Translations under genes and position numbers: made by a program
Assembly (NCBI GenBank): GCA_939800445.1
Contig: CALNGU010000001.1
Span: forward strand, 1 to 64,000
Reading direction: 5' to 3'
DNA length: 64,000 nucleotides
From: an uncultured Bacteroidaceae bacterium
Lineage (GTDB): Bacteria; Bacteroidota; Bacteroidia; Bacteroidales; Bacteroidaceae
Part shown: one piece after another, positions 10,793-61,995 of the stretch
Layout of the letters: each line of letters opens with the position of its first letter
Position numbering within the stretch: position 1 is the first letter of the stretch
The notes under the pieces: model-generated
The model's database searches: none
Told to the model about the DNA's origin: nothing
What the model saw: the letters and a program-made list of their open reading frames with translations, nothing else

Positions 10793-10797
10793 CGAGA

Positions 10798-10905
10798 AGC
10801 ACAGCACCGCACGCAAGGGGCAACGGCATCGTATGCTACAGCCAATAGCATTGCATGATTTCACCCGCAGCACCGTATGTTTTTGTCGAAAACATACGGT
10901 GCTGT
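10798..10905. repeat. GCATACRATG-type repeat array, copy A
   Basis: The region has GGCATCGTATGCTACAGCC, AGCATTGCATGAT and a perfect 15-base inverted repeat AGCACCGTATGTTTT/AAAACATACGGTGCT (10869-10883 and 10889-10903). The motifs recur about every 20-22 bases and match the arrays at 28702-28812 and 61894-61995. Confidence 0.6.
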
Positions 10906-10928
10906 CATAACAACCATCTCATGTAAAA

Positions 10929-15400: not shown

Positions 15401-16186
15401 ATGGACAAAATCAGGAAGAAAATCTATTTCCTCTCCGATGCCCACCTCGGCTCACGTGCATTGGAGCACCGCCGCACACACGAGCGAAGGCTCGTCAACT
15501 TCCTTGACGCCATCAAGGAGGAGGCGGCCGCCATCTACCTGCTCGGTGACATCTTCGACTACTGGTACGAATACAAATACGTAGTCCCCAAAGGCTACAC
15601 GCGCCTGCTCGGCAAGATTTCAGAACTGACGGACAGAGGTGTCGAGGTGCATTTCTTCATCGGCAACCACGACATCTGGTGCAAGGACTATTTTGTCGAA
15701 GAGTGCGGCATGATCATGCACCGCGAGCCAATCACAATCGAGCTGTACGGCAAGGAGTTCTACCTTGCCCACGGCGACGGACTGGGCGATGAATCACGCG
15801 GTTTCAAACTGCTGCGGACGATGTTCCATTCCAAGACTTTGCAGACGATGTTCTCTGCCATCCATCCGAGGTGGACTATGGAGCTTGGTCTCAACTGGGC
15901 CAAACGCAGCCGCCTCAAGAGGGAGGACGGCAAAGAGCCTGACTACATGGGCGAAGACCGCGAACCTCTCGTCCTCTACACCAAGGACTACCTCAAGACA
16001 CATCCCGACATCAACTATTTCATCTACGGGCACAGGCACATCATGCTCGACCTCATGCTCAGCAGGGAAGCACGGATAGTCATCATTGGCGACTGGATAA
16101 AGTACTTTTCCTACGCCGTTTTCGACGGCAACGAGCTGATTCTCGACCAATACGTCGAGGGGGACAAGGAAAAGCCAGTGCTGTAA
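15401..16186 (+). CDS. lpxH: UDP-2,3-diacylglucosamine diphosphatase, LpxH-like
   Basis: A 261-residue calcineurin-like phosphoesterase. All metal-site motifs are present: SDAHLGS, LLGDIFDYW, FIGNHDIW, AHGDGLG and YGHRHI. The LpxH/LpxH2 group hydrolyses UDP-diacylglucosamine to lipid X in lipid A synthesis at the inner membrane. The middle (SKTLQTMFSAIHPRWTMELG and so on) is the helical cap that holds the acyl chains. It follows the SufT-like gene by 19 bases and is ended by a clear terminator. Confidence 0.88.
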   Translation: MDKIRKKIYFLSDAHLGSRALEHRRTHERRLVNFLDAIKEEAAAIYLLGDIFDYWYEYKYVVPKGYTRLLGKISELTDRGVEVHFFIGNHDIWCKDYFVEECGMIMHREPITIELYGKEFYLAHGDGLGDESRGFKLLRTMFHSKTLQTMFSAIHPRWTMELGLNWAKRSRLKREDGKEPDYMGEDREPLVLYTKDYLKTHPDINYFIYGHRHIMLDLMLSREARIVIIGDWIKYFSYAVFDGNELILDQYVEGDKEKPVL

Positions 16187-16337: not shown

Positions 16338-16436
16338 AGTCTATTTTTAACCTGAAAATACATAATTTCAACCTAAAAATATATAGACTTAACCTAAATC
16401 TATATAATTGCAGTCTAAAAATAAAGTTTTCATGCG
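16338..16436. repeat. 21-nt phased AT-rich repeat array, copy 1
   Basis: Four units of about 21 bases follow one another, each close to TTTCAACCTAAAAATATATAG. The outer ends are inverted copies (AAAGTCTATTTTTA and CTAAAAATAAAGTTTT). The remaining 16255-16534 holds no gene. The same array occurs at 56120-56210. Both arrays lie before a plus-strand nucleic-acid enzyme gene. Confidence 0.75.
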
Positions 16437-16534
16437 ATGCCAATGACTTCACGCCGCGATTGACCAGGCTTGATGCCGCACGCGGGACGGGCGGACTGGC
16501 AAGGGGGCAGGCGGCGCAGTGCGGCTTGCCGATG

Positions 16535-16565
16535 TTTGGCTATGGAGGAAAAGTGCATAACTTTG
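16535..16565 (+). promoter_or_regulatory. Promoter of the RNase H gene
   Basis: TTTG at 16535-16538 and TAACTTTG at 16558-16565 are 19 bases apart. The start codon is only 20 bases after the -7 element, so the leader is very short. Confidence 0.82.
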
Positions 16566-16584
16566 CACCAATCAAACGACCACT

Positions 16585-17205
16585 ATGTCCAAAAACAACT
16601 ACTACGCCGTGTGGGCAGGCCACAATCCCGGGGTCTATGACTCGTGGGCGGCGTGCCTTGCGCAAGTGAGGGGCTACAAAGGGGCAATCTACAAAGGCTT
16701 TGCCACGCGGCAGGAGGCTGAGGAAGCCATCGCCGGCAACTATGCCGACTATGTCGGCAAGGCAAAGCGTGCTCCGAAGCCACGGGTGGTGACGACCGAA
16801 GGCATCATCGCCAACAGTATAGCAGTCGATGCCGCGTGCAGCGGCAACCCGGGCAAGATGGAGTACCGTGGGGTCTACACCGCCACAGGACAAGAACTTT
16901 TCCACTTCGGGCCTATCAAAGGAACGAACAACATAGGGGAATTCCTCGCCATCGTCCACGCCCTCGCGCTGATGAAGCAGAAGGGGTGGGACCTGCCAAT
17001 CTACAGCGACAGCCGCAACGCCCTGCTCTGGATCAAAGGCAAGAAGTGCAAGACCAAACTGGCACACACCCAGGCGACGGCACAGGCGCACGACATGATT
17101 GCCAGGGCTGAACGGTGGCTGGCCGGCAATGAATACACCAACAGGATAATCAAGTGGGAAACGGACAAATGGGGGGAAATCCCCGCAGACTTCGGGAGGA
17201 AATGA
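16585..17205 (+). CDS. Ribonuclease H with N-terminal viroplasmin-like domain
   Basis: A 206-residue protein. Residues 1-48 are a caulimovirus-VI/viroplasmin (hybrid-binding) domain: YYAVWAGHNPGVYDSWAACL then GYKGAIYKGFATRQEAEEAI. Residues about 70-206 are RNase H type 1, with acidic residues in AVDAACSGNPGKMEYRGVY, NNIGEFLAIVHAL and PIYSDSRNALLWI. It degrades RNA in RNA-DNA hybrids. It is a monocistronic unit with its own consensus promoter. A second, unrelated RNase H (HII) is encoded at 24439. Confidence 0.93.
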   Translation: MSKNNYYAVWAGHNPGVYDSWAACLAQVRGYKGAIYKGFATRQEAEEAIAGNYADYVGKAKRAPKPRVVTTEGIIANSIAVDAACSGNPGKMEYRGVYTATGQELFHFGPIKGTNNIGEFLAIVHALALMKQKGWDLPIYSDSRNALLWIKGKKCKTKLAHTQATAQAHDMIARAERWLAGNEYTNRIIKWETDKWGEIPADFGRK

Positions 17206-17238: not shown

Positions 17239-20202
17239 TCAATCCTCCAACGCCTCGTAAATGATGTCCTGGATTTTGCTCCTGATGCCGAGCTTGGCAA
17301 GTTTGTTTGTCAGACCGTCAGGGTAGACACGGTTGCTCAGGAAGATATAAATCAAATCATTGGCAGGGTCAACCCACACGCACGTGCCGGTGAACCCGGT
17401 GTGACCGTAGACACCGCCCGGCGTGAGCGGCGAGCAGGGACTTTTGCGGTTGTCCCCCTCGTAGGAGCGGTCAAACCCGAGCCCACGGCGGCTGATGCCC
17501 GACTTGGCAGTCGTGAACAGGCGGCAAGTTGGCAACGACAGGTAAGTCCTCCCGTCAAAAGTGCCGCCCGCAAGAATCATCTGGTAGATGCGTGCCAGCT
17601 CTTCCGCCGTTGAAAACATCCCGGCATTCCCCGACACACCGCCAAAAAAGGCTGCCGAATCATCGTGCACATAGCCTTGCAACCGCCCGCGATGCAGGAA
17701 GTCGTCGGTGACGGTCGGCACAATCTTGCTGGCAGGATAGTGCTGCAAGGGGTTGAAGAACGTGCGCCGCAGCCCCAGAGGGTAGAAAAATTCACGGTTG
17801 AGGTAGGTGTCCATCGGCTCACCGGTTATCGCCTCGACAATCTCCTTGAGAAGAATGAAGCCGACACAACTGTAGGAATATCTTTTTGAGCGCAACTTAG
17901 AGTCCGCTATCATCTGGAGTGCCTTGGCGCGATATGCGTCATTGACGAACATACCCTCAGCCACTTGCCAACGAAAGTCTCGGTTGTAATGGCGGCCAAG
18001 ATAAGCCTCATCATAGTCGAAATCTGACGGGACGTAGAGATTCCTCCCTATCCGCCTGCCATGCGCCCCATCACGGCGGTAGGAATAAAAGGGGGCGGTG
18101 AACGAAGCACTGTCCAACGCCGCCGCGAAGAACGGCAACGACGGCATCAGCCCCGACTCGTGGAACAGCAGGCTGCGGATGGTGATGTCCTCCTTGTCCG
18201 ACCCTTTGAGCCATGGCAAGTAGTCAACGACACGGTCATCCAGCTTGAGCCGCCATTGGTCATAGAGTTTCATGACCGCCAGCAACGTGCCTGATGTCTT
18301 GGTCATAGAGGCGATGTCGTATATGTCATCAAACCTCACAAGGCGGCTGTCACCGTATTCATGCGTGCCAAAACATTTGTCATAGACTGGTTTGCCGTGC
18401 CTCATGACGAGGATTTGGCAACCTGGATAGGCTTGCTCGGTTATTCCCCACACGGCGACCGAGTCGATGCGGGCCAAAACGTCGGACGACATACCCACGT
18501 CCTCCGCCCTCACCTGCCGCTCGGTCAGGTCAGGCAGGAGGTCAAGGCCTGCCCCACCCCTGGCAACACCCGGGATTGTCATCGACAGCCTGCCATCAGC
18601 ACGTTCCAACCCACAGATGACACGGGCGGTGTGCTGCTGCACATAGTCTTCGGCAACGTGGGACAAAACCATGGCGGAGGATGCCGGTGCTGCTTGCTTC
18701 CATTTTTCCACTTCTTTCATCGAGGTGAAAAAGACAAAGACTTTCGATGATTTCGGGATTTGCTTCAAAGCCTGCAACGCCCATGATGGGGTGGAGGCTG
18801 ATATGGGTACTATGACAGTCGGATAAGCCTGCAATGCCTCCGCTTTGGCATTGAACGAGGCGAGCGACGAGAACGCATACACATCGACATTGGCAAGCTC
18901 ATCCATCTCACTTGCAAACGGTTTGACCGCTGCATCAAAGCGTACCACCGCCACCGCCTGCCCTTGCCGCATGACGGGAAGCCGCCCGTAGTTGTCGCTG
19001 ACGACTGTCACCGCCGCCTTGTGCAAGCGTTGCATCAACTGACGGGACGCATCGTTGACAATGCGGTCGTAGAGACCAGCCGCATCGATCTCCTTTTTGT
19101 CCTGCACACCCATCAGGAACTTGAAGGCAAGCACTTTCCTGCATTTCGCATCCAGCTCGGCGGCCAAAGCCTTGTCATGCCGCGCCGCATGGACGACTGC
19201 ATCAAGTTGCGGTTTGACGGGGACGGGGGAAAGCACTACATCGTTCCCAGCCTGCAAGGCTTTGAGGCAGACGTTCTCAAATCCGGCAACGCCTTTCATC
19301 GCCAACGCGTCGGTGAACACGAGCCATCTGAATCCTATGTCGTCGCGCAAGACATCTGACACCGGGCGCGACAGCGATGACGGCAAACCCGGCGTTGGGT
19401 CGATGGCAGGCACAGAGATATGCCCCACCATCACGCCATGAAGCCCGGCTGCGACAGCTTGCCTGAAAGGGTACATCTCAATGCTGTCAAGCCTGGAGCG
19501 GTCGTGTGCGACCTTGGGAAGAGCCTTGTGCGAATCAATCGATGTGTCCCCATGGCCTGGGAAGTGCTTGAGCACCGACAAGACTCCGGCACCCTCAAGC
19601 CCCGAGGCAAAGGCAACCGCCTTGTCCGCCACCCTGGCGCGGTCTTCGCCAAAAGAGCGTGTGCCGATGACCGGGTTTGCCGGGTTGGTGTTGACATCGG
19701 CGACAGGCGCAAAGTCTATGTCCACACCGATAGCCTTGCATTGCCGTCCGACCTCACGACCGAGTTCCTTTATCAAATCGTTATCCGCGATGCAGCCCAG
19801 CACGGCATTGCGCGGGAAGGATGGCACCGACTTAATCCTCATCCCGAGCCCCCACTCGCCGTCAAAACCTATCATGGCAGGGGTCTTGGCGAGGCGGACT
19901 ACCATGTTGTTCATGGCGAGATGCTCCTCAAGCGTGCCTCCGGAGAAGTATATTCCACCCAGCTTCATGTGCTCGATGTAATCGCGCACGGCCTTGCGGT
20001 TGGCATCGTTCTGCTGCGGGGCGACATTGACCATAAACAATTGGGCAATCCGTTCACGGTGCGACATCCCGTCCATGACCGAATCCGCCCATTGCAGCGC
20101 ACGCTCATAGTGCTGCGGCGAGGTGTCTATCCCCTGAGCAACAGCCGCCGCCAACGAGATGAGGGAAGCCAACAGGAAGGCAAACAATGATTTTGCTCTC
20201 AT
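17239..20202 (-). CDS. GH3 beta-N-acetylhexosaminidase fused to a serine beta-lactamase-like domain
   Basis: A 987-residue exported protein (signal peptide, residues 1-22). The N-terminal GH3 domain (about 30-390) has the NagZ-type loop KHFPGHGDTSIDSHK; a GH3 C-terminal domain follows to about 570. The last 400 residues are a penicillin-binding-protein/beta-lactamase fold with SMTK (nucleophile Ser near 632), YSCVGF and HTGFTG. The two parts suggest peptidoglycan recycling or remodelling in the periplasm: sugar cleavage plus peptide hydrolysis or sensing. It starts 6 bases after the 5'-nucleotidase gene and is last in that operon. Confidence 0.9.
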   Translation of the reverse strand: MRAKSLFAFLLASLISLAAAVAQGIDTSPQHYERALQWADSVMDGMSHRERIAQLFMVNVAPQQNDANRKAVRDYIEHMKLGGIYFSGGTLEEHLAMNNMVVRLAKTPAMIGFDGEWGLGMRIKSVPSFPRNAVLGCIADNDLIKELGREVGRQCKAIGVDIDFAPVADVNTNPANPVIGTRSFGEDRARVADKAVAFASGLEGAGVLSVLKHFPGHGDTSIDSHKALPKVAHDRSRLDSIEMYPFRQAVAAGLHGVMVGHISVPAIDPTPGLPSSLSRPVSDVLRDDIGFRWLVFTDALAMKGVAGFENVCLKALQAGNDVVLSPVPVKPQLDAVVHAARHDKALAAELDAKCRKVLAFKFLMGVQDKKEIDAAGLYDRIVNDASRQLMQRLHKAAVTVVSDNYGRLPVMRQGQAVAVVRFDAAVKPFASEMDELANVDVYAFSSLASFNAKAEALQAYPTVIVPISASTPSWALQALKQIPKSSKVFVFFTSMKEVEKWKQAAPASSAMVLSHVAEDYVQQHTARVICGLERADGRLSMTIPGVARGGAGLDLLPDLTERQVRAEDVGMSSDVLARIDSVAVWGITEQAYPGCQILVMRHGKPVYDKCFGTHEYGDSRLVRFDDIYDIASMTKTSGTLLAVMKLYDQWRLKLDDRVVDYLPWLKGSDKEDITIRSLLFHESGLMPSLPFFAAALDSASFTAPFYSYRRDGAHGRRIGRNLYVPSDFDYDEAYLGRHYNRDFRWQVAEGMFVNDAYRAKALQMIADSKLRSKRYSYSCVGFILLKEIVEAITGEPMDTYLNREFFYPLGLRRTFFNPLQHYPASKIVPTVTDDFLHRGRLQGYVHDDSAAFFGGVSGNAGMFSTAEELARIYQMILAGGTFDGRTYLSLPTCRLFTTAKSGISRRGLGFDRSYEGDNRKSPCSPLTPGGVYGHTGFTGTCVWVDPANDLIYIFLSNRVYPDGLTNKLAKLGIRSKIQDIIYEALED

Positions 20203-22699: not shown

Positions 22700-22905
22700 C
22701 AGGCCAGACATAAACTTGCATACCTCGGCGAGCAAAGTAAAAACAAAAGTTTTGAACGGTCATTCAAAAGTTTTGTTTATATAAACAAAAGTTCTGAATA
22801 TTAAAACAAAACTTTTGTTTTTACTTTACTCACCGAGACATGGAACTTTGCACGGCGGGCAGTCGAGGTTTATGCCTGACATCAACGGCTTTGCCCCTCA
22901 TGGCA
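22700..22905. repeat. Dispersed palindromic intergenic element, copy 2
   Basis: CTCGGCGAGCAAAGTAA (from 22725) and TTTACTTTACTCACCGAG (to 22837) are inverted copies. Inside them the arm at 22734-22754 is exactly self-complementary to 22807-22827. The centre is GTTTATATAAAC. After the right arm the CACGGCGGG and GACATCAACGG blocks are related to copies 1 and 4. The element fills most of the gap between rplS and the GNAT gene, and the rest of 22560-23090 holds no gene. Confidence 0.85.
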
Positions 22906-28595: not shown

Positions 28596-28701
28596 ATTTA
28601 CTATCAATACTATATGAATAGCAAATGGAAAACCTCAGCATTATTAGCTAAACCGACACGATTTACCAACGCATCACAGAACGACACACCTCGACGGCAA
28701 A

Positions 28702-28812
28702 AGCATTGCAAGTAAACGCCATTAGCATACAATGCTGGAGCCAACAGCATCGTATGCTGATGCCGATACCATCAGATGCTATCCCCAAAAACATACGATG
28801 CCGTGACCAGAG
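28702..28812. repeat. GCATACRATG-type repeat array, copy B
   Basis: AGCATACAATG, AGCATCGTATGCT, CATCAGATGCT and ACATACGATGCC follow at about 20-22 base steps. The start GCATTGCAAGTAAACGCC is almost identical to the start of copy C (61894 on). Apart from this and the elements listed, 28596-29454 contains no gene. Confidence 0.7.
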
Positions 28813-32268: not shown

Positions 32269-32424
32269 ATCAGGGGAAAAGTTGTAAAAGGGTAAGGGAA
32301 AAGTAAAAACAGAAGTTTTGAATATAAAAACAAAACTTCTGTTTATATAAACAAAACTTTTGAATGAATATTCAGAAGTTTTGTTTTTACTTTAGGGTAA
32401 GCCACTTGGCGGTTTTCCCCTGAT
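32269..32424. repeat. Dispersed palindromic intergenic element, copy 3
   Basis: A 156-base element bounded by perfect 12-base inverted repeats ATCAGGGGAAAA (32269-32280) and TTTTCCCCTGAT (32413-32424). Inside it are AAAAGTAAAAACAGAAGTTT, a central GTTTATATAAAC and the inverted arm GAAGTTTTGTTTTTACTTT. The core matches copies 2 and 4, but the outer ends differ. The rest of 31986-32481 contains no gene. Confidence 0.85.
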
Positions 32425-39111: not shown

Positions 39112-39161
39112 TTCTTTTCTTTTTAATTGTTTAAGTTATGATCTCATTTTGTTGCAGCCGC

Positions 39162-39184
39162 GATTACAGGAAGGAGATGTAATC
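39162..39184 (-). promoter_or_regulatory. Hairpin in the rpsK-rpsD gap
   Basis: GATTACA and TGTAATC form a perfect 7-base stem with a 9-base loop. It lies in the only long gap inside the alpha group, so it may be an RNA element controlling S4 synthesis or a processing site. Confidence 0.45.
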
Positions 39185-55925: not shown

Positions 55926-56119
55926 GTCGTCATCGGTTTGATTGATAATGCTATAAACGGCCTACGCCGTCGCACCAAAGATAGGGATTTGCACTTACAA
56001 AAACAAACGCCAGCCGCCAAAAGCCCTGACACGGCAGCCACGCCACGCTCCCCAGCACGTCCACGCATCGGTCTCCAAGCCGCCATCAGTGCCGGGAAAG
56101 CCGGGAACAAGGGATGCAA
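55926..56119. other. Intergenic region between the Cys-rich gene and the AT-rich array
   Basis: No gene, promoter or terminator of note is seen in this 194-base stretch apart from the start of the following repeat array. Confidence 0.3.
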
Positions 56120-56210
56120 ACTTTATTTTTAAACTAAAAACATATAGACTTAACTTGCAACTATATATTTTCAAGCTAAAAATATATAATTTCAGCCTAA
56201 AAATAAAGAT
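56120..56210. repeat. 21-nt phased AT-rich repeat array, copy 2
   Basis: About four units close to TTTCAAGCTAAAAATATATA follow at 21-base steps. The ends are inverted copies (ACTTTATTTTTA and TAAAAATAAAGAT). It is the same array as at 16338-16436 and lies about 70 bases before the helicase promoter. Confidence 0.75.
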
Positions 56211-56254
56211 TGCTCGGCGTGCTGGCAACTTTTCACGCAGCAGCACCCGCACGG

Positions 56255-56286
56255 CTTGAAATGACGGGGCAAAAAACGTAAGTTTG
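56255..56286 (+). promoter_or_regulatory. Promoter of the nuclease-helicase gene
   Basis: CTTG (56255-56258), 20 bases and TAAGTTTG (56279-56286). The start codon at 56299 is 12 bases on, so the leader is very short. Confidence 0.7.
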
Positions 56287-56298
56287 CCACCGTTTAGC

Positions 56299-59200
56299 AT
56301 GGAGACCATCAAGATGACAACCACCGGGCCGACTGGCGGCGGACGAGACGCCGCAGCCTACACACGCGCCACAGTCACCGCCTGCACCGCGACATCCGTC
56401 ACGGTGAGCACGGGGGACGGGCAGCGGAGGGTTGAGCTTGCCTTGCACTACGCGGGGCGCGACTGGAGCTACCTCACCGCCCTCGTGCGGCAAGGCACAC
56501 AGCTCAACATCGTCGCACCGCATGATGACGGGGGCAGGCTCGGCGGCGAGGTCATCGTGGTCGAACCCGACTATCTCGTGGATGTCTCGTCGGTGGCGGC
56601 GTGTTTCGAGCCATACGGCGAGAGCCACCTGCACTTCATGCTCAACCGCCTGAAGCCACGCGCCGGTTCGTCGGCTGTCCTGCTCGGAAACTTCGCCTCG
56701 CAGCTCCTCGACGAAGAGGTGCACGGGCTGTCGTCGAGCACCACTTATGCCGAGAGCATACGGCGGTTCTTCAAGCGCAACGGGCTGGCGATGGCGGCGT
56801 GCCCTGACCTTTCACCATCGTTCCACGCCGATGCACGGCTGCAACGTGAGAACATCGCCCGCGCCATCCGCCGCGACATGGGCGGCGTGACGGCATACCG
56901 CAAAGGCAAGGCGGTGGTCGAGCCGTCGTTTGTCTGCGAGATGCTGGGCTTGCAGGGGCGCATGGACCTGCTGCAGGACGACTGCCGTGTGCTGGTGGAA
57001 CAGAAGTCGGGCAAAGCGGCATACGCCCCCGGCGGCGATGGCGGCATACATCGCCAGGAGAAACACTACGTGCAACTGCTGCTCTATATGGCCGTGCTGC
57101 ACTACGGGTTCGGACTGGACTACGGGGAGATGAGCTGTTTCCTGCTCTACTCCAAATATGCCGACGGACTGCTCCGAATGGATGCCGACCCGGCACTGCT
57201 GCACCGCGCCATCAGGGTCAGAAACGCCATCGCCGCCACCGAGATTGCCGCCGCGCATGGCGGTGCGGAGCAGGTGCTGATGGGCATCACCGCAGACAGC
57301 CTCATCACAAATCCCGCCGGCGAAGGGCTGATGCGCCGCTTCGCAGGTCCGAGGCTGGAGGCGTTGCTTGCGCCGCTGCACTATGCGTCGCCGCTTGAGA
57401 GAGCCTACTACTTCAGGCTCTACCGCTTCATTGCCACCGAGCATCTGCTGGCAAAGACGGGGGGAGCGGAGTGCGGCAGGGCGGGGTTCGCCTCGACATG
57501 GCAGGCGACGCTTGAGGAGAAGTCGGATGCCGGCGACATAGCCCTCGGCATGACGCTCACCATCCCCGAGAGCAACGGCGGCGAAGAGGGCGTGACGCAC
57601 ATCGTCCTGTCGTTTGCCGACGGGACAAGCCCCGAGTCCACCAACTTCCGTCGCGGCGACACGGTCATGGCATATACATATATAATAGGTAAAAGTCCCG
57701 ACGCACGGCGGACGATGGTGCACCGCGCCTCCATCGAACATCTCGGGCCGTCGTCGATGACACTGCGGCTGCGCGCCCCGCAGACCGACAGCCAGCCATT
57801 CGCAACCACCGAGGGATGGGCGTGGGCGGTGGAGCATGATTTCCTGGAGTCCTCCTACACCTCGCTCTACCGTGGCTTGCACACGTTCCTGACAGCGACA
57901 CCAGGCAGGCGCGACCTGCTGCTTGCACGCCGCCGCCCCGAGGTGGACGAGGCCGCCACTCCCCCACCCACCGCCGCGACCGACTACATAGCCGCCCTCG
58001 TCGCCAAGGCCAGCCGCGCCAAAGACTGCTTCGTCGTCATCGGACCTCCCGGCACAGGCAAGACATCATTTGCCATGCTCAACATCCTCAAGGCGCAACT
58101 CGGCCGCCCGGGTACGGCGGTGCTGCTCATGGCCTACACCAACCGCGCCGTTGACGAGATGTGCAGCAAGCTGGTGGAAGCCGAGCCGCGACCGATAGAC
58201 TTCATCCGTCTCGGCAGCCACCTCTCATGCGCCGAGGAATTCCATCCCTACCTCCTGTCCGAGAGGCTCGCCCGTGCCGCCACCGTCGCCGATGTCTCCG
58301 CGCTGGTCGGTTCGACCCGGGTGTTCGCAGGCACGGTAGCCGCGCTCAACGCCTCGCCGCAACTGTTCGAGTTGAAACGCTTCGATCTGGCAATCATAGA
58401 CGAGGCTTCGCAAATCCCCGAAGCATATCTCCTCGGCACGCTCGCCGCCCGGCACGGGGCGGGGGACGCCATAGCACGCTTCGTCATGATAGGCGACAAC
58501 AAGCAGCTCCCCGCCGTCGTCGCCCAAAGCCCAGACGCGTCGGCCGTCACCGACCCGATGTTGCGCTCGATAGGCCTGACCGACTGCCGCCTGTCGCTGT
58601 TTGACAGGCTGCTGGCACTCTACGGCGACGACGGCGACATAGTGTCGATGCTCACCCGTCAAGGCAGGATGCACGAGGGGGTCGCCGACTTCCCCAACCA
58701 CGCATTCTACGGCGGGCGGCTCGGCATAGTGCCGTTGCCGCACCAGACCGGGACGGAACAGCCACCGGCATCCTGCACCGACAGCCTGCACGCACTGATT
58801 GCCACGCGGAGGCTCGCATTCGTCGCCGCCCCCGCCCCCGACGGTGCAGCCCCAACGTCTAAGACCAACCCCGTCGAAGCCGCCATGACAGCCGCCGCCG
58901 TGTGCGCCGCCCGCGACATCAGCACCGCACCCGACCCAGCACGGGCAATAGGAGTGATCGTCCCCTTCCGCAACCAAATCGCCGCCGTCCGCGCAGCCAT
59001 CGACCGCCTCGACCCCGCGCTGCACGACGTGACGGTGGACACCGTCGAGCGTTACCAGGGGAGCCAGCGCGACACCATCATCTACAGCACCACCGTGCAC
59101 ACCCCCGCACAGCTCGACTTCCTCACCGCCACCACCGCCGCCGACCCGTCAGGCACGCTCATCGACCGCAAGCTCAACGTCGCACTGACGCGTGCAAGGC

Positions 59201-59343: not shown

Positions 59344-59403
59344 GCCCGCCGCACCACAGGGACAAGGGGAAAAGCCCACCACGTCAGACACAAACCTTCA
59401 CTG

Positions 59404-59605
59404 CCCGCCGAGAAAAGTTCCACTGCTCGGCGAGTAAAGTACATTCAAAAGTTTTGTTTATATAAACAGAAGTTTTGAATATATAAACAAAACTTTTGTT
59501 TTAATATTCAGAAGTTTTGTTTTTACTTGACTCGCCGAGACAACCAACTTTTCTCGGCGGGAGGGGTAAGTTTACCCCTATTGTCATCGGATTTATCCCT
59601 TGACG
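59404..59605. repeat. Dispersed palindromic intergenic element, copy 4
   Basis: The core (59404-59561, 158 bases) is bounded by the perfect 16-base inverted repeat CCCGCCGAGAAAAGTT/AACTTTTCTCGGCGGG. Inside are CTCGGCGAGTAAAGTA and TACTTGACTCGCCGAG, then AAAAGTTTTGTTTATATAAA at the centre. The tail CCTATTGTCATCGG matches copy 1. Small reading frames across it come from the repeat. The rest of 59606-59782 holds no gene. Confidence 0.85.
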
Positions 59606-61864: not shown

Positions 61865-61894
61865 TGGCGGCGGCACCCGGTGCCGCCGCCATTT
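61865..61894 (+). terminator. Hairpin after the membrane protein gene
   Basis: TGGCGGCGGCAC and GTGCCGCCGCCA pair across a 3-base loop, followed by TTTG. Confidence 0.6.
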
Positions 61895-61995
61895 GCATTG
61901 CAAGCAAACGCCGATGGCATACAATGATTTTGCCCTTAGCATACAATGTTTTTGCCAACAGCATACGATGATAATGGCTGTAACATCTGATGAAA
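61894..61995. repeat. GCATACRATG-type repeat array, copy C
   Basis: GCATTGCAAGCAAACGCC opens it, nearly the same as copy B at 28703. GGCATACAATG, AGCATACAATG and AGCATACGATG follow at steps of about 21-22 bases, then ACATCTGATG. Confidence 0.7.

Follow-up and report, generated by a model that had tools for sequence, protein, structure and literature searches.

The DNA analysed here (the window) is the first 64,000 nucleotides of contig CALNGU010000001.1, from a draft genome of an uncultured, gut-type Bacteroidaceae bacterium (assembly GCA_939800445.1, 136 contigs, designated G000). Two of its genes, encoding an RNase H1 (PF01693 and PF00075) and a nuclease-helicase (PDDEXK_1 with AAA_11/AAA_12), lie downstream of tandem arrays of four 21-nt units, at 16342–16423 and 56124–56205 respectively. 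The two arrays are in the same register and define family A. Its unit consists of 8 + 3 + 8 + 2 nt, TANNNNYA.RSY.TRNNNNTA.TA, with a dyad on the central G or C (S) of every unit and TATATA at the joints. No strand is assigned to these or any of the other arrays, nor to their flanks.

Tandem Repeats Finder (TRF) gives a period of 21 at 16345–16423 and 56162–56205, which bears out an earlier note on this DNA that described about four units at 21-base steps at both loci. The inverted copies that it saw at the array ends are also present, as CTTTATTTTTA ... TAAAAATAAAG at the 56120 locus and GTCTATTTTTA ... TAAAAATAAAG at the 16339 locus. The very short leader that it proposed for the downstream genes is not evident, since one core ends about 160 bp before the ATG (16423 to 16585) and the other about 93 bp before it (56205 to 56299). 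The repeat word of that note, searched with up to three mismatches, occurs five times in the window, always inside the two A arrays, and not at all in 100 dinucleotide shuffles.

The arrays were surveyed in 723,140 bases of G000, made up of the window and 40 further stretches, many of which were selected for holding an A array. The genome search for family A gave 78 matches, since arrays match themselves on both strands, and 49 candidate places, of which 40 were scored. At a score of at least 45 of 50 in register, 36 A arrays were called, and all 36 have exactly four units. When the 36 are combined in one profile, AAA comes back 21 bp beyond the array, separated from it by G+C-rich sequence; for the array at 56124 this left flank is 56088–56123, and the right flank (56206–56241) mirrors it. 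When the same 723 kb were scanned de novo for self-similarity over lags of 14–32, 65 arrays emerged, of which 33 have a lag of 21, 31 a lag of 22 and one a lag of 27. They include at least three families besides A, which are unrelated in sequence and have a common format, namely B (21 nt), C and D (both 22 nt). These unrelated families hold to an 8-3-8-2/3 format, and in all clear families the units are two helical turns apart. The array at 56124 is one copy of this widespread set of four-part arrays.

Both loci of the earlier note are therefore real, but seven more arrays of like format in the window had been overlooked. Family B (core CARAASTTYTG) is represented by three whole arrays of four units, at 22734–22827 (cores at 22744, 22765, 22786 and 22807, within an outer inverted repeat at 22712–22849), 32300–32393 (cores at 32310, 32331, 32352 and 32373) and 59440–59527 (cores at 59446, 59467, 59488 and 59509), and by an array end at about 1–27, truncated by the start of the contig. 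Three family C arrays, with 22-nt units and the core CATNSNATG, are at 10797–10906, 28696–28801 and 61888–61992. The stretch from about 33,400 to 55,400, bounded by the arrays at 32300 (B) and 56120 (A), has no detected array of family A, B or C; it includes an S4-type ribosomal leader (39155–39184).

Chains of four units make up 12 of 18 family B chains in G000 and 32 of 36 in its sister species, G004. The B element extends beyond its core. The array at 59440 has 22-nt outer modules (59399–59440, TRF period 22), which are likewise found in G004, where 33 oriented copies have A+T blocks every 22 bp within G+C-rich flanks, over at least three modules on each side. Not only the contig of the window but also three others in G000 (C17, C18 and C19) start inside B arrays, and the B repeat thus seems to break short-read assembly. 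Family D has the unit TTGTTANNNNNNNTAACAA, and its two-unit pattern has 90 matches in G000 and 14 in G004. Family E consists of two de novo matches only (L092:1044 and L088:18532), and a regular-expression search found no perfect E arrays.

Conservation in related genomes

G004 is syntenic with G000 at about 85% identity, and 111 orthologous gaps between genes were compared for all families. Where G000 has an A–D array (46 gaps), G004 has one of the same family in 38, C and D are exchanged in two, and in six there is no array or none that can be read, although one of these six (L121) does hold an A array on closer look. All 64 gaps that lack an array in G000 also lack one in G004. The one further gap has an unclassified lag-22 array in G000 and no array in G004.

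For family A alone, both flanks were located in one G004 stretch for 26 of the 36 arrays, one flank for two, and no flank for eight. Among the 26, a G004 array is present by the strict score in 20, by a weaker score in three and absent in three; the sample is skewed, since A matches guided the choice of most of the 53 source stretches of G004, and only three of the 26 come from stretches not chosen for A (two present, one absent). The array at 16342 is among those with a counterpart (L129:6401). Orthologous A arrays have a mean identity of 81.5% (range 0.72–1.00), against 70% for non-orthologous ones. Gaps were needed in four of 20 array alignments but in 28 of 40 alignments of the adjacent 36-nt flanks, which are 66% identical. 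The place, family and phase of the arrays are thus kept while their surroundings drift. At one pair of loci (L101:18400–20000 and L139:16287–17879 of G004) the flanks of the A array are 97–100% identical, compared with about 85% elsewhere between the species; strong constraint, an artefact of binning or recent transfer may be responsible.

This constancy bears directly on the suggestion that the arrays are non-autonomous mobile repeats, similar to miniature inverted-repeat transposable elements (MITEs) or bacterial interspersed mosaic elements (BIMEs), which spread by copying together with their tandem sub-repeats and have a secondary function for the host or none. High copy number, several families per genome and restriction to some species would all fit, as would the B copies of G004, which often agree in their entire series of half-site words, as though each had been copied in one piece, and the contig starts within B arrays, which are typical of repeats. 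Such repeats would not be expected to leave 64 of 64 empty gaps empty and 38 of 46 occupied ones with the same family. In addition, two sites that lack an array in G004 were aligned, and show neither a clean insertion nor a target duplication. The unit number, expected to vary in MITEs, is always four in A and mostly four in B. The outer arms of the arrays form imperfect inverted repeats, though without sharp ends. We regard this explanation as somewhat unlikely.

Repetitive extragenic palindromes (REPs) and BIMEs, which are associated with REP-associated tyrosine transposases (RAYTs), are intergenic, multi-copy imperfect palindromes arranged in mosaics, with several families per genome. The arrays resemble them in being intergenic, multi-copy, imperfectly palindromic and of several families. 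They differ in their fixed two-turn phasing, in avoiding complementarity between partner half-sites and in RNA folding, which is weaker than in column shuffles where REPs form stable hairpins. A search for the RAYT domain (Y1_Tnp, PF01797) found none in six of six genomes, while the controls were positive in five of 14, and RAYT-driven REPs were rejected on this basis. The arrays are not typical MITEs or REPs, given that no sharply bounded terminal repeats were seen, nor target duplications at the two sites aligned, and that no RAYT gene was found. The nearest named repeat of the Bacteroidales is BrickBuilt, a MITE of Porphyromonas gingivalis, described as 23-nt direct repeats between a leader and a tail (PMC4596501). 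It is likewise intergenic and multi-copy, and some of its loci are kept in P. gulae. Compared with BrickBuilt, the arrays have a nearly fixed unit number, no such ends were found on them and their hairpin potential is reduced (PMC4596501).

An origin from viruses, phages or plasmids was also considered and rejected. The B pattern matched no stretch of the viral_contigs set, the A pattern matched one stretch, which by eye is a chance match without an array, and a B element had no match in plasmids or phages, a result that also counts against mobile repeats.

Beyond the two species, the families are patchily distributed. By BLAST, family A is found in three of the five genomes of the genus, and its exact two-unit pattern in four of 201 genomes of the bacterial family, one of which (G025) belongs to another genus and uses other words. 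Family C has 92 matches in G000, 103 in G004 and 49 in G001, and none in G002 and G003; overall it is found in five of the 201 genomes, two of them with stray matches only. A few arrays with dyads, at a lag of 21 or 22, occur in single 20-kb stretches from other genera. At L209:7117 (G006), in another genus, there is a near-perfect 4 × 21 array, CAAAGCCCGCCGCCTTTTTTT, which has the look of a terminator. At L185:3389 (G025) there is a 4 × 22 array, CTGAAGTCTTGCGGAAAACCAA; an A-like array built from different words is present in that genus too.

In G001, which is about 76% identical to G000, some places appear to hold an array of a different family. Beyond the orthologue of the gene at 15401–16186 (88.8% protein identity), in the counterpart place of the A array at 16342, there are four units like TATTCACC.GAC.GGTAAATA.TA (L162:1661–1745, 4 × 21, core CCGWCGG, TATATA joints). 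The A array at L104:5896 faces a B-like array (L166:243), and that at L089:5494 a C-like array (L165:12181); in all three cases only one flank is established. The gap of the B array at 22734 has C-like words in G001 by eye, and none according to the classifier. A-like sequence is kept in G001 at two A places, L123:6262 and L104:12334, the G001 copy at the latter scoring 0.76, below the cut-off of 0.80. It is possible, though doubtful on present evidence, that the arrays form a new class of intergenic element defined by its format, with three to five pseudo-dyads at two-turn spacing, unlike partner half-sites and fixed slots between transcription units in which the family can be swapped during evolution. 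If so, these slots would constitute a bacterial boundary system in which site and protein specificities co-evolve.

Half-site rules, folding and predicted curvature

The half-sites of family A are drawn from a small vocabulary, with 41 distinct words in 288 half-sites. Inverted neighbours (d = 1) are less alike than in column shuffles, with z of −4.1 in G000 (n = 36) and −3.9 in G004 (n = 33), two genomes that are not independent as most arrays are common by descent. Inverted half-sites at d = 5 behave in the same way (−2.6 and −2.8), those at d = 3 show no effect (+0.9 and −0.65), and direct pairs are inconsistent (−2.5 and −0.2 at d = 2; −1.2 and +2.4 at d = 4). The rule can be seen at single positions. 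Inner units that start with TA on one half and TG on the other number 50 where 31.8 are expected, and 44 where 31.6 are expected, while joints with A at position 6 on both sides number only 8 and 6, against 22.4 and 22.2 expected. Partners are also less alike in family B, both within units (z of −3.7 for 12 arrays in G000 and −7.8 for 32 in G004) and at joints (−4.1 and −5.6), direct pairs being close to zero; the G004 values are inflated by shared ancestry, because its B copies are partly recent copies. Family D shows the same tendency (0.372 against 0.468, standard deviation 0.048).

The same preference is visible in the turnover between the two species, counted over 19 orthologous A pairs after one identical pair was dropped. 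At joints, 11 of 16 like pairs became unlike, compared with six of 41 in the opposite direction (p 0.00015), and at position 2 within units the counts are six of seven and four of 19 (p 0.005). The effect is weaker at joint position 5 (p 0.1), and four control sets of positions gave p from 0.13 to 1. What holds is that like–like partner half-sites are short-lived. Compensatory double changes showed no excess, with two against 1.9 expected at position 2 of the same unit and three against 2.3 at junction position 6, and no polarity chain along the arrays was seen by eye. Among 80 cases compared, the central S of A units differs between orthologues in 36, and 21 of these are exchanges of G and C, as is expected for the dyad position of a homodimer site.

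Every unit is an 8-3-8 inverted repeat, and the arrays could in principle act at the RNA level, as tandem hairpins that serve as terminators, attenuators or stabilizers of mRNA. Some D units would suit such a role, 16 of 43 in G000 being perfect 8-bp stems with 3-nt loops. Family A RNA, however, folds less strongly than column-shuffled arrays in both genomes (−18.7 against −21.4 and −17.7 against −20.7 kcal/mol; z +3.5 and +3.4), complementary partners are avoided in A and B, and a search of the window with Rfam matched only tRNA and the S4 leader, and none of the arrays. The arrays also lack any preference for gene orientation (see below). On folding and orientation the hairpin reading was rejected, and we consider it very improbable. 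The arrays retain a dyad in degenerate form but no true self-complementarity, which they avoid, and unlike partners together with weak RNA folding favour double-stranded protein sites over RNA or cruciform hairpins. That partner half-sites avoid being complementary can be measured, and this gives a rule for telling the palindromes of protein sites apart from hairpin elements, which could be used on other repeats too.

Curvature was predicted with a wedge model, in which a control comparing A4T4 with T4A4 determined the sign. In this model the A arrays bend by 105° on average (minimum 86°), compared with 34° when shuffled and 69.5° for the 99th percentile of genomic 94-mers; the two arrays in the window bend by 97° and 102°. 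The power of AA/TT in A arrays is greatest at a period of 10.5, as in phased A-tract DNA, where A/T tracts recur at 10.5-bp steps. The bending by phased A-tracts put forward in the earlier note is thus supported by the model for family A, but it is not a property of the whole set, since families B (10–33°) and C (25–32°) have the same two-turn format with little predicted bend. Bending is therefore not the common function. The idea that intrinsically curved DNA acts alone, for example as an upstream promoter element, has further difficulties in the four of 36 A arrays that lie between convergent genes and in a word grammar (ARSYT, TATATA, partner asymmetry) stricter than bending needs, and we consider it very improbable.

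Intergenic placement and a possible binding protein

With gene boundaries taken from our own gene calls, all 36 A arrays are intergenic, 17 in co-directional, 15 in divergent and four in convergent gaps. For gaps of 200–1500 bp, arrays occur in every orientation class (38 of 81 co-directional, 18 of 28 convergent and 30 of 48 divergent gaps; p 0.12, no orientation preference). The window has arrays in seven of 19 such gaps, a count that leaves out the 56124 gap, which is longer than 1500 bp by these gene calls, and stretches not chosen for A have arrays in 14 of 34. Among gaps of at least 200 bp, the proportion is about half in the sampled stretches and about 40% in stretches not picked for arrays. 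Array centres are close to the middle of the gap (0.48 in divergent and 0.39 in co-directional gaps), and their median distance to the downstream start is about 225 bp.

We give roughly even chances to the reading that the arrays are intergenic platforms for oligomeric DNA-wrapping proteins at the boundaries of transcription units. Each of the three or four (rarely more) imperfect dyads would take one dimer of a DNA-binding protein, and the two-turn spacing would align the dimers on one face of the helix. The aligned dimers could then wrap or loop about 85–270 bp of DNA, in the manner of Lrp-type octamers. Families A, B, C and D would serve different proteins or specificities within one format. 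From their position mid-gap and upstream of promoters, the arrays may be boundary or architectural sites, which insulate neighbouring units or constrain supercoils.

The closest parallel is with the operators of Lrp/AsnC (feast/famine regulatory) proteins. Sites of the Lrp family consist of clustered, imperfect semipalindromes at intervals of two or three turns, and the DNA is wrapped on octamers (PMC2995911, PMC10201364). In operators such as those of BarR, the semipalindromes recur regularly every two turns, and each octamer takes about four or five of them (PMC10201364, PMC2995911). The arrays share the imperfect dyads and the two-turn centre spacing. They differ in that the known examples are single regulated promoters, whereas here there are tens of copies per family and genome, and one Lrp-type gene.

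Several observations weigh against protein platforms. No binder was found. There is one AsnC/Lrp-type gene (PF01037) in G000 and one in G004, and none was found in G001, and a single gene per genome is too few for four families. No array at lags 19–24 lies within the 3.2 kb around this gene in G000 or G004, and an autoregulatory site, which is common at the regulator's own gene, was thus not found. Three of the 26 A arrays with both flanks in G004 are absent there, at L106:13694, L115:11171 and in the 56124 gap itself. Finally, A and C are found in three and D in two of five species of the genus, so that their function is neither general nor essential at the level of the genus. The idea that Lrp binds every family was rejected, on the grounds that there is one gene only and no array beside it.

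The arrays might instead be sites for chromosome maintenance (segregation, cohesion or domain boundaries, similar to parS or iterons) rather than transcription-unit boundaries, a role that would fit their two-turn, iteron-like form, their spread across the genome and their lack of orientation bias. That several unrelated families occupy similar settings counts against this role, and its chances appear slender. If the arrays are protein platforms, they would represent an unrecognized layer of chromosome organization in Bacteroidaceae, and they provide ready DNA bait for finding the protein. Among the papers listed by searches of an open-access library, which does not cover subscription papers or preprints, none describes such arrays in its title or the opening of its abstract. 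The format-conserved, multi-family element is regarded as novel, and its function would be that of a protein-binding boundary site.

The genes that neighbour A arrays were surveyed for starts facing an array within 350 bp. This gave 40 genes, of which 30 were scanned with NCBIfam and the two window genes with Pfam. The genes with a match are mostly ordinary (SppA, GuaA, PurB, LptB, NqrA, Ppk, MsbA, TolC, agmatinase and others), with some connected to nucleic acids or translation (RpsA, LeuS, a DbpA-like helicase, a RarA-like ATPase and a methyltransferase). The connection between the arrays and nucleic-acid enzymes suggested by the two genes of the window is therefore unsupported, and was rejected because the neighbours are generic. 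Elsewhere in the window, positions 17239–20202 encode a single protein in which a glycosyl hydrolase family 3 domain is fused to a domain of β-lactamase fold.
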